From contig JADFKM010000014.1 of the NCBI GenBank assembly GCA_022564935.1, forward strand, positions 1-36,700: a stretch of 36,700 nucleotides of DNA. Reading direction: 5' to 3'. Under the pieces are notes generated by a model. It searched no databases. It saw only the letters and a program-made list of their open reading frames with translations, and was not told where the DNA came from. Source of the DNA: Candidatus Dadabacteria bacterium. GTDB lineage: Bacteria; Desulfobacterota_D; UBA1144; Nemesobacterales; JADFKM01. Position numbers and translations under genes: made by a program. Every line of letters begins with the position of its first letter. The first letter of the stretch is position 1. Below, one piece after another: positions 323 to 24,445 of the stretch.

Positions 323-350
323 TTGCATAGAGAACAAGAGGTTGTATAAT
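323..350 (+). promoter_or_regulatory. Putative sigma70-type promoter of hflX
   Basis: A perfect TATAAT at 345-350 is preceded, 16 bases upstream, by a weak -35-like TTGCAT at 323-328. Transcription would start near 357, about 50 bases before the proposed ATA start of hflX at 409. This is about 210 bases before the first canonical start codon at 568. The position therefore supports the upstream start. Confidence 0.45.
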
Positions 351-377: not shown

Positions 378-394
378 GGCGGGTTAACCCCGCC
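378..394 (+). promoter_or_regulatory. Small GC-rich hairpin just before the hflX ribosome binding site
   Basis: GGCGGG (378-383) and CCCGCC (389-394) form a 6-bp stem around TTAAC. It ends four bases before the GGAG at 399-402. It is too short of a T-run to be a terminator on the plus strand. It could modulate translation initiation; this is inference only. Confidence 0.3.
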
Positions 395-408
395 CTGCGG
401 AGAACAAA

Positions 409-2079
409 ATAGACAGAATTTACGGTAAGACCTCCGGTCTGAAGGCCAGCGAACTCCACAACCTATCAAGACTTTACAGAAGAAGGATCCCCAGAGGGGA
501 CATAATTACCCAAGAGCTCTGCAGGACGGTTTCACAGATCTCACACGACTTAAAGCGGAACATCTGCTTGCTCATAAACCGACGGGGTAAGATCAAGGCC
601 GTATTCGTCGGGGACGCGTACGAGATACCCTTCGATGAAATATTGGAAAGGTCAAGGGAGGCTAAAGTCAGGCTCCGCGGTTACCGTCTTATCCACACAC
701 ACTTAAGAAGCCCCTCCCTTTCTCATCCCGACCTGGTTACCCTGCTCAGCGAGAGGCTCGATCTCATAGGCGTCATTGAAGTAAAGCCCGAAGGGTTTGC
801 CGGAAAGCTGCAAATTGCCCACATGCTCCCTCCGAACCCCAGGGGAGATATGTGGGACGTGCGGGAATATCAAGACATCGGGAGACTGAACACAAATTTC
901 GACGAGTTCATCGTCGACCTTGAAAACCAAATCGAGAGGTCATACCGGAAATTCGGAGGTACGACCGACAAAGAAGGCGTTTTCCTGGTCGGTTTTTCCA
1001 CTTCTTCGAGGTACGAAGCGCAAGACTCCATAGGGGAGCTGAGGGAGCTTGCGCTCTCGGCAGATAAAATCGTGCTGGGTAAAGTGGAGCAAGTAAGGAA
1101 GAAGCCCGACCCAAGATACCTCGTCGGCAAAGGGAAGCTTGAGGAGATAATCCTGCGGGCCAAGCACCTCGGAGCCAACACCCTAGTGTTCGACGTCGAG
1201 CTCACCCCCGCGCAGGTAAGAGCTATATCCGACCAAACAAACCTCGGGGTAATGGACAGGACCCAGCTTATACTCGAGATCTTCGCCTCACGAGCCAACT
1301 CGAGCGAAGGAAAGCTGCAGGTACAATTAGCCCAGCACCGGTACATGCTCCCAAGGCTTACCGGCAAGGGCATAGAGCTATCGCAGCTCGGCGGCGGCAT
1401 AGGCACGAGGGGGCCGGGGGAGAAAAAGCTCGAAGAACAGAGGCGGATGCTCAGAAAAAGGATCGAGCAATTAGAAAAACAGATCGAGAAAATAGGAAAA
1501 AGGCGGCAGAGCGGCAGGAAATACAGGAAAGAAACCGGAATCCAGACTGTAACCCTCATCGGGTATACATGCGCAGGGAAGTCCACCCTCTTCAACACAA
1601 TTACAAAGAGCGACGTGCTTGCCGAAAAAAGGCTTTTCTCAACACTTACCCCCACCACAAGAAAGATGATGCTGCCAAGCGGGAAGACAATACTGCTGAC
1701 CGATACTGTGGGTTTCATACGCGACCTTCCCGAAGAGCTCATGAAGGCCTTCAGGGCCACGCTTGAAGAGCTTGGCGAGTCTACTGTGCTCGTTCACATG
1801 GTCGATTCAAGCGACCCGCAATACGACAGCAAGATCGAATCGGTAGAAAACATCTTGGCCTCAAACGGCTATGATGAAATCCCGACAATACTGGTATTCA
1901 ATAAAATAGATAAGATCACAGAAAGCGAGAGACTGCGTCTGAAGCAGATCTATAACTCTCCCTTAGTTTCAGCCCCGGACAAAACGACGTTCGAGAATTT
2001 TCTCCTCACCCTCGACGCAAAAATAAACCACTCCTACGATGCCCCCGAACAAACCGAGACGGCAGGAATCGTCAACTGA
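409..2079 (+). CDS. hflX: GTPase HflX (ribosome-associated), probable ATA start
   Basis: HflX is a ribosome-binding GTPase that splits stalled 70S ribosomes. The G-domain is complete: G1 GYTCAGKST (about residue 385 of the long form), a G2-like TPTTR, G3 DTVGFI and G4 NKID. Before it lies the glycine-rich GGGIGTRGPGE linker typical of the family. The ORF track starts at a TTG at 568. However, the same frame is open upstream to 388 and encodes YGKTSGLKASELHNLSRLYRRR, which matches the N-terminal extension I know from deltaproteobacterial-type HflX. That stretch has no ATG, GTG or TTG. The best-placed start is ATA at 409, six bases after GGAG and about 50 bases after the promoter, giving 556 aa. 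G1 carries Cys where HflX usually has Asn (GYTNAGKS). The function call is firm; the start codon is an inference. Confidence 0.93.
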   Translation: MDRIYGKTSGLKASELHNLSRLYRRRIPRGDIITQELCRTVSQISHDLKRNICLLINRRGKIKAVFVGDAYEIPFDEILERSREAKVRLRGYRLIHTHLRSPSLSHPDLVTLLSERLDLIGVIEVKPEGFAGKLQIAHMLPPNPRGDMWDVREYQDIGRLNTNFDEFIVDLENQIERSYRKFGGTTDKEGVFLVGFSTSSRYEAQDSIGELRELALSADKIVLGKVEQVRKKPDPRYLVGKGKLEEIILRAKHLGANTLVFDVELTPAQVRAISDQTNLGVMDRTQLILEIFASRANSSEGKLQVQLAQHRYMLPRLTGKGIELSQLGGGIGTRGPGEKKLEEQRRMLRKRIEQLEKQIEKIGKRRQSGRKYRKETGIQTVTLIGYTCAGKSTLFNTITKSDVLAEKRLFSTLTPTTRKMMLPSGKTILLTDTVGFIRDLPEELMKAFRATLEELGESTVLVHMVDSSDPQYDSKIESVENILASNGYDEIPTILVFNKIDKITESERLRLKQIYNSPLVSAPDKTTFENFLLTLDAKINHSYDAPEQTETAGIVN

Positions 2080-22207: not shown

Positions 22208-24445
22208 TCAGTTAGGCCTCCCGATGCGCAGCTCCGGCGGGAGCGGCGGAAAATGCACATTCTCCACCCCTAGCGGGTTCCCTACGCTGTGACAGGCAAC
22301 ACAAGCCCCTTCGGGCTGAGCACCGCCGGGATGGCCATCTCCGGTAAGGGCATCGCCGGCCACTGTGACTCCAAGTCCGTCATGACAGCCTGTGCACGTG
22401 GCGATTATCGGAGTCGTAAAGAACGTATCTAGAACCGTTATAGTTGAATCGTCCTTAGTGAATTCGCGCTCGGTCGTGGACAGCACTCCGGGGCCAAGGA
22501 CTCCGAAACCTAGATCCAGCACGTATGTATCCTGCAAATGGCACTCCTCGCAGTTCCTCCTGTCGCCGGGGAAAAGCACTTCGCCGAAGTCGTTGACGCT
22601 GCCACGGAAACCGAAGATGATGTACGGCTGTTCGGTCAGCTCTTCTCCCGTATGGATCTTATGGATCATGACCTTGAAGTGTATGGCTTCGCTCATTGCA
22701 GGGTCTCCGGGGAAATCAACCGGCCGCACGGCTATGTCGTCAGCGGAGGGATTATGGCAGAGCACACAGTATTCGGTGTTGTTCCTGAGGTTGCCGTGTA
22801 TGCTGAAGTCCTTGGAGAACACGCCATGACAGGCGCTGCAAAGCTCACCCTCAAACGTATTGTCTACAACCATCCGCCTGGGCACGGCCACCGGGTCGGT
22901 CACCGGGAAGTAAAACACTACGTTCTGCCCGGCCTCTTCGACCTCTTCGATCAGGATACGGTCGTCGCCGCCTACTGTTCTGGCAATCCTGCCCTCAATA
23001 CCGATAGCGTAGGTGCCCGTAGCATCTGCGGGTATCATGCCGTCAAAGGTATAGGTGAAGTTGCCCGATGCGTCAGGCCCTACAGAAGCATCTGCAGGCC
23101 TTTCGCGCAGCACATTCTCCGCGCCGGGTGTCTTGAGGCCGTCGCCGTTGTAGTCCTGTATGTCGTAGTCGTTCGTGGGTCCCGCAATAACGAGGCTTAT
23201 GGAATCCATGTCCTGTGGAGTAATGACAGCTCCGGCGTCGGTTTTTATGCTGTAAGCCACCTGAACATGCTCCCCCGGCCCAACAGTGGGAAGACTCGTC
23301 TCGGCGCTCCTAACGCTCACGATTTCAAAGTTAACACCGGGTAGAGATGCTGCGCGCAACAGAACCGTATGGGCCCCATCAACAGAGATGTCGAACTCGG
23401 TGCCCGTAGAAGGCAGGTGACAGGCGGAGCAGTTGTCGTCGTCAAGCTGCACCACGGGGTGGTTCTCCGCGGTGGCAAATACTACATCGTCGTGACAGGA
23501 GCCGCAGGCGGCCCTTGACGGGTTGGTTTTGAAATTGTCCGCCTGGGTCGCAATGCCCCCGTGGCATTTCTCGCAGTTCTTTATGTTCTGTGGGAACTCG
23601 ACCTCGGAAAAATCGTGAACACTGTCGCGGAAGCCTACAATCTGGTAAGGGGTGCCCTCTTGTACGCTCGGCAGCTCTGCCCCTCTGTGAATCTTGTGAA
23701 CCATCACCTTGAGATCAATAGAGTTGCCCGTGTCAGGGTCGATTTGTGGAGTTGTTACACCCGTTTCGGAATCCGTTATCTCAGCCGTATGGCACAGCAC
23801 ACACAGCTTTACGTCCCTTCTGAAGCCGCCGTGGACTTTCAGGGGGTCGTGGCAGGTGTTACAGCTCTCAACCCTCACCACATCTCGAACCACTCTTACG
23901 CCGCCCCCCGAGGGGACGAAGTCAAAAGTGGCGTTGGCGACAAACTGCCGGCCGAGTATTTCGACATCGGCGAATATTCCAACAGTGTGTGTGGCATTCG
24001 GATCAAAGCCTGGGGGCAAAACAGTGTTAAATGTATATTGATTCAGGCCTCCGCCCATGTTCACAAGCGTGCCGTCATCTGCGTTTTCCGAGCTTGCCTG
24101 GGTAGCGGACACGCCCGTTATCGAGCTCGTTTGAACCCTGGTGATGTAGTCTTGATATTGAGTGTCGCCGCTCTCAATCCTGGCGATAATCAAGCGAATC
24201 CTTACGATGCCGCTGTCAATCGGGTTCCCTTCGTCGTCAAAGATACGGAAGGTAATTACAGCTCTTCTATCCGAGTTGATTGAAGCGTCGAGTATCTCGA
24301 TGTTGAGTTTGTTTATAGATGGAAGGGGAGCGGGGGCTATAACGAAATCGCCGTTATCGTCACATCCCAAGGAGGTGATTAGCAATAAGCAAAATACAAA
24401 GCATGGAAGACATATGATCCTGAGCTTTTTATAATTTGCGCTCAT
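22208..24445 (-). CDS. Decaheme OmcA/MtrC-family outer-surface cytochrome lipoprotein
   Basis: The 745-aa protein has a lipobox (SLGC, Cys28) and ten CxxCH sites, arranged as two pentaheme halves: residues 195 (CNTCH), 215, 291, 314 and 339, then five more in the C-terminal half (CSACH, CVLCH, CEECH, CTGCH, CVACH). The family signatures DPLKVHGGFRRDVKLCVLCH and DLKVMVHKIHRGAELP recur in each half (SIHGNLRN..., KVMIHKIHTGEEL). Beta-rich domains (FRIFDDEGNPI, YTFNTVLPPGF) precede each heme cluster, as in MtrC/OmcA. Family members reduce metals or minerals outside the cell. GAGGAGA lies eight bases before the ATG. It is the first gene of the operon. Confidence 0.93.
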   Translation of the reverse strand: MSANYKKLRIICLPCFVFCLLLITSLGCDDNGDFVIAPAPLPSINKLNIEILDASINSDRRAVITFRIFDDEGNPIDSGIVRIRLIIARIESGDTQYQDYITRVQTSSITGVSATQASSENADDGTLVNMGGGLNQYTFNTVLPPGFDPNATHTVGIFADVEILGRQFVANATFDFVPSGGGVRVVRDVVRVESCNTCHDPLKVHGGFRRDVKLCVLCHTAEITDSETGVTTPQIDPDTGNSIDLKVMVHKIHRGAELPSVQEGTPYQIVGFRDSVHDFSEVEFPQNIKNCEKCHGGIATQADNFKTNPSRAACGSCHDDVVFATAENHPVVQLDDDNCSACHLPSTGTEFDISVDGAHTVLLRAASLPGVNFEIVSVRSAETSLPTVGPGEHVQVAYSIKTDAGAVITPQDMDSISLVIAGPTNDYDIQDYNGDGLKTPGAENVLRERPADASVGPDASGNFTYTFDGMIPADATGTYAIGIEGRIARTVGGDDRILIEEVEEAGQNVVFYFPVTDPVAVPRRMVVDNTFEGELCSACHGVFSKDFSIHGNLRNNTEYCVLCHNPSADDIAVRPVDFPGDPAMSEAIHFKVMIHKIHTGEELTEQPYIIFGFRGSVNDFGEVLFPGDRRNCEECHLQDTYVLDLGFGVLGPGVLSTTEREFTKDDSTITVLDTFFTTPIIATCTGCHDGLGVTVAGDALTGDGHPGGAQPEGACVACHSVGNPLGVENVHFPPLPPELRIGRPN

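Follow-up and report, generated by a model that had tools for sequence, protein, structure and literature searches.

The hflX gene of the genome studied here appears, from sequence comparison, to join infC among the genes whose near-cognate start codon is ancient and selected. In the window, i.e. the whole 36,700-nucleotide stretch of DNA that was analysed, the AUA at 409 is well supported as the predicted start of hflX, and the aligned 5' ends of homologues indicate that a weak hflX start (AUA, AUU or AUC) is kept across two bacterial phyla. Such conservation of the rare start was unsuspected in the original prediction, and no published link of HflX to a near-cognate start was found among open-licence papers.

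The 5' end of hflX in the window

The window belongs to a 2.0-Mb metagenome-assembled genome of a Candidatus Dadabacteria bacterium. A profile search assigned the encoded protein to HflX (TIGR03156, 415.7 bits against a curated cut-off of 216.75). The gene and the elements at its 5' end are located as follows.

345..350, + strand: TATAAT hexamer, a possible -10 element, about 60 nt upstream of the ATA
385..387, + strand: TAA stop in frame with hflX, which closes the frame 8 codons before the ATA
399..402, + strand: Shine-Dalgarno (SD) GGAG, six bases before the predicted start, with an anti-SD duplex energy of -6.6 kcal/mol
409..411, + strand: predicted AUA start codon, in frame with hflX; ATA is conserved throughout the phylum
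412..567, + strand: 52 codons following the ATA, up to the first canonical start; they encode the conserved N-terminal segment of HflX and are under purifying selection
568..570, + strand: TTG, the first canonical start codon of hflX (codon 54); an unlikely start, as the conserved segment would be lost
409..2079, + strand: hflX, 556 codons plus stop; an N-terminal extension of ~190 residues, followed by the HflX/GTPase core

The original prediction had described an hflX frame that is open ahead of TTG 568, with 53 codons free of ATG, GTG and TTG, and an ATA at 409 lying six bases after GGAG. Inspection of the window's hflX frame between the TAA at 385-387 and TTG 568 revealed none of the three canonical codons, and the GGAG sits exactly where it was placed. 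The ATA had also been said to lie just behind a TATAAT promoter. The hexamer is indeed present at 345-350, but it sits some 60 nt away, and the search upstream of hflX revealed neither an acceptable -35 partner nor a sigma-70 promoter with a -35 element, leaving a promoter at this hexamer unproven. No occluding mRNA structure was found at the hflX start, the folding of this 5' region being no stronger than that of shuffled sequences (z -0.43).

The 53-codon stretch had been taken for the conserved N-terminal segment of HflX, an assignment borne out by its presence in relatives and by the coding constraint on it. Comparison of the window with relatives gave dN/dS values of mostly 0.05-0.18 for hflX codons 2-53. 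Between the ATA and TTG 568, differences at third codon positions are 2-4 times those at second positions against most relatives, with a lowest ratio of about 1.4. Judged by these substitution patterns, the 52 codons before TTG 568 evolve as coding sequence.

The N-terminal extension contains a motif H-T-H-x6-S-x2-D (residues 96-108; window 694-732) that resembles the JAMM motif of RadC/MPN proteins. Alignment of the extension against the RadC/JAMM profile by hhalign is in register with the RadC motif at an E-value of 0.25, which is not significant, and both histidines of the H-T-H motif are lost in one family. No Pfam or PDB match to the extension was found. A two-sequence AlphaFold (AF2) model of the N-terminal domain was poor (pLDDT 56) and yielded no significant Foldseek match. 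Elsewhere in the window, positions 22208-24445 of the - strand encode a large protein with MtrC/MtrF outer-membrane decaheme cytochrome domains, which suggests extracellular electron transfer.

Start codons of hflX homologues in two phyla

The phylum of the window is small and was represented by 58 genomes in two orders. HflX homologues of both orders were read at their 5' ends, sharing 40-69% identity with the HflX of the window in its own order and less in the other; most genomes compared are metagenome assemblies. In each of the 47 genomes of this phylum with the 5' end of hflX on a contig, ATA is the first hflX codon, 44 at the exact codon, two shifted by an indel (L065 and L066) and one in a frameshifted contig (L063, genome G042), the last being counted from a reading of the raw sequence. 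The frameshift in L063 follows soon after the ATA and is probably an assembly error. In the other order (12 genomes), a stop usually lies a few codons upstream and no canonical start precedes the ATA. HflX was undetected in five genomes of the same phylum with 90-98% completeness (G025, G018, G031, G045 and G052), possibly a real loss.

A second and large phylum was reached via locus L031, in which 183 of 247 sampled genomes possess the same N-terminal extension. The same codon is AUH (ATA, ATT or ATC at the start codon) in 84 of 110 5' ends, being ATT in 35, ATC in 34 and ATA in 15. A nearby ATG, GTG or TTG is found in most of the non-AUH genes of this phylum (19 across the full set). With canonical starts in about 19 of the 110 second-phylum genomes, the weak start is, on this reading of the 5' ends, not indispensable to hflX. 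Three long hflX genes (L089, L095 and L105) have an apparent ACG start; their usual codon is not AUH, and the ACG lies four codons before the conserved glycine.

Altogether, AUH occupies the exactly homologous hflX codon in 128 of 156 genomes over the two phyla, and a conservation of this extent excludes a chance ATA at 409. It also bears on the two alternatives of the original prediction, that a rare start codon is used, or that an ATG was mutated and the protein shortened. In the latter case, an ancestral ATG would have been mutated or misread in this genome, and translation would now start at TTG 568, the first canonical start and the choice of gene callers, to give a shorter protein. We consider this reading virtually untenable: the 52 codons ahead of TTG 568 are under purifying selection, and it is implausible that over 120 independent assemblies share one error. 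The ATG looked for at the aligned 5' end of hflX was found in no relative of the window's phylum. Hence a mutation of ATG or a sequencing error at 409 was rejected on the ground that the relatives share ATA or AUH, whereas the use of a rare start, found as ATA throughout one phylum and as AUH in a second, stood.

The frame is closed upstream in 97 of the 128 AUH loci, with no ATG, GTG or TTG between the stop and the first invariant glycine (Gly6). In the remaining 31, a canonical codon is present at another in-frame position ahead of the conserved glycine, or the sequence piece ends before a stop. These 31 loci would leave room for a longer protein, made from an upstream frameshift or a distant canonical start, in which the ATA is an ordinary isoleucine codon. 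That is most improbable, as the window frame is closed 8 codons upstream and the 97 loci have no canonical start; moreover, an internal isoleucine codon would be neither fixed as ATA throughout a phylum nor preceded by a strong SD. Initiation at another nearby near-cognate codon, such as ATT 418 (codon 4), which is in frame, is likewise very unlikely. Codon 4 varies among relatives (ATA, ATT, ATC, GTA, CTC and TTA), whereas codon 1 is fixed, and the spacing from GGAG to ATT 418 would become 15 nt.

Nearly all AUH starts of hflX are preceded by an SD at normal spacing, with the last G of GGAGG mostly 6-10 nt ahead. The mean SD duplex energy at these starts is -9.1 kcal/mol, compared to -4.2 for shuffled sequences and -2.9 at 40-60 nt upstream.

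Third-base changes and comparison with other weak starts

A tree of the HflX N-terminal region, built on 80-200 residues, was used to count the changes at the start codon, the counts being minimum numbers. At the third base, at least 30 changes occurred among A, T and C, whereas G was gained or lost only 3 times. As A-to-G mutations are normally among the most frequent, this scarcity of changes involving G indicates that AUG has been avoided as the hflX start. As a control of the method, obg, which encodes another ribosome GTPase of the same phylum, was found to start with ATG in 30 of 30 genomes. A phylum-wide tolerance of AUA starts was rejected on the same count, infC being the expected exception.

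The start codon of infC is AUU in E. coli and AUA in S. aureus (PMC13009471). The infC gene of the window's genome reads GGAGGGAAGTGTA-ATA-GCT, with the ATA at L196:1456-1458, and an AUH start of infC is found in nearly all of the 59 genomes examined from both phyla. The infC ATA of the window's genome overlaps the stop of the preceding gene, apparently thrS. hflX resembles infC in an AUH start kept across phyla and present in the same genomes, in a strong SD, and in a product that acts in ribosome subunit splitting or anti-association. They differ in that infC is autoregulated by its own product, whereas HflX is not known to read start codons, which would make hflX a target rather than an autoregulator.

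Two genes of S. aureus, ccpN with AUA and cvfC1 with AUU, share with hflX a conserved near-cognate start; theirs has an extended SD, and its output is about 10% of that of AUG, rising in rich medium to as much as 30% in the case of ccpN, which gives the ccpN AUA a range of about 10-30% (PMC13009471). However, cvfC1 is conserved among staphylococci and ccpN between S. aureus and B. subtilis, and neither product is a translation factor, the pair consisting of a small protein and a metabolic repressor (PMC13009471). Similarly, the GTC start of Streptomyces sigR is conserved, non-canonical, repressed by IF3 and preceded by a strong SD, but it is a GTC within one genus that balances a sigma against an anti-sigma factor (PMC5472188).

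Other hflX genes also show weak starts: TTG is used in E. coli and in 23 of 30 genomes of Bacteroidota, so that starting weakly may be more widespread among hflX genes. The E. coli gene likewise encodes an HflX GTPase, but it lacks the N-terminal extension of ~190 residues, its TTG is an ordinary start, and it is regulated by heat-shock promoters (PMC9067457). Canonical starts are usual in hflX genes without the extension. A plasmid search for distant long HflX proteins gave a sole match, in Fusobacterium animalis, with an ATG start. Two short hflX genes (L256 and L257) have no ATG, GTG or TTG before the conserved core, with a possible ACG start at about position 1483 of L256.

A proposed coupling of HflX to IF3

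Taken together, these comparisons make it very probable that hflX is translated from the weak AUA at 409, which most likely keeps HflX low and sensitive to IF3 in the way of infC. We propose that the initiator tRNA puts fMet at AUA 409, aided by the GGAG Shine-Dalgarno. Initiation at a near-cognate codon such as AUA is weak, so that the level of HflX would be low. In the simplest reading, a weak start restrains hflX, and a shortage of IF3 relative to 30S subunits relieves it; the first part follows from the sequence evidence and from reporter measurements on AUA starts of other genes. That initiation is weak in this organism, that it depends on IF3 and what physiological purpose it has are what we infer.

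On the 30S subunit, IF3 disfavours near-cognate starts, and it represses infC and the GTC start of Streptomyces sigR (PMC5472188). As near-cognate codons are rejected in this way, the output of hflX would track a shortage of IF3, with more translation at a low ratio of free IF3 to 30S subunits and less when IF3 is plentiful. We infer that hflX would then be relieved together with infC. Vacant or stalled 70S ribosomes are split by HflX, and the rejoining of subunits is prevented by IF3 (PMC9067457). Since one factor splits the ribosome and the other keeps its subunits apart, a single signal would set the levels of both.

The weak start might instead serve only to hold HflX at a low constitutive level without regulation by IF3, being kept because an excess of a ribosome-splitting factor is harmful. 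This is a possible explanation, to which we give somewhat over one chance in three. It fits the use of TTG, weak but tolerated by IF3, in the Bacteroidota and E. coli genes, and the apparent interchangeability of the third bases A, T and C in the hflX start. By contrast, IF3 rejects the AUH class of codons but not UUG, and infC starts with AUH in these genomes as well; moreover, a UUG or a poor SD would suffice for a low output, yet the SD is strong. As for the IF3-sensitive reading in its broadest form, the chances seem to us about even that hflX and infC make up an ancient regulon read by IF3, in which AUH, kept against AUG, couples ribosome splitting to anti-association via start-codon fidelity.

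The true hflX start, if it is read correctly here, must escape any gene caller restricted to ATG, GTG and TTG, which will then trim the HflX N terminus in both phyla. Long-term evolutionary retention of a non-canonical start is known from few genes, namely infC and, on a narrower scale, ccpN, cvfC1 and sigR. If true, the presence of such a start in another translation factor across two phyla would suggest that discrimination by IF3 governs a small regulon beyond infC.
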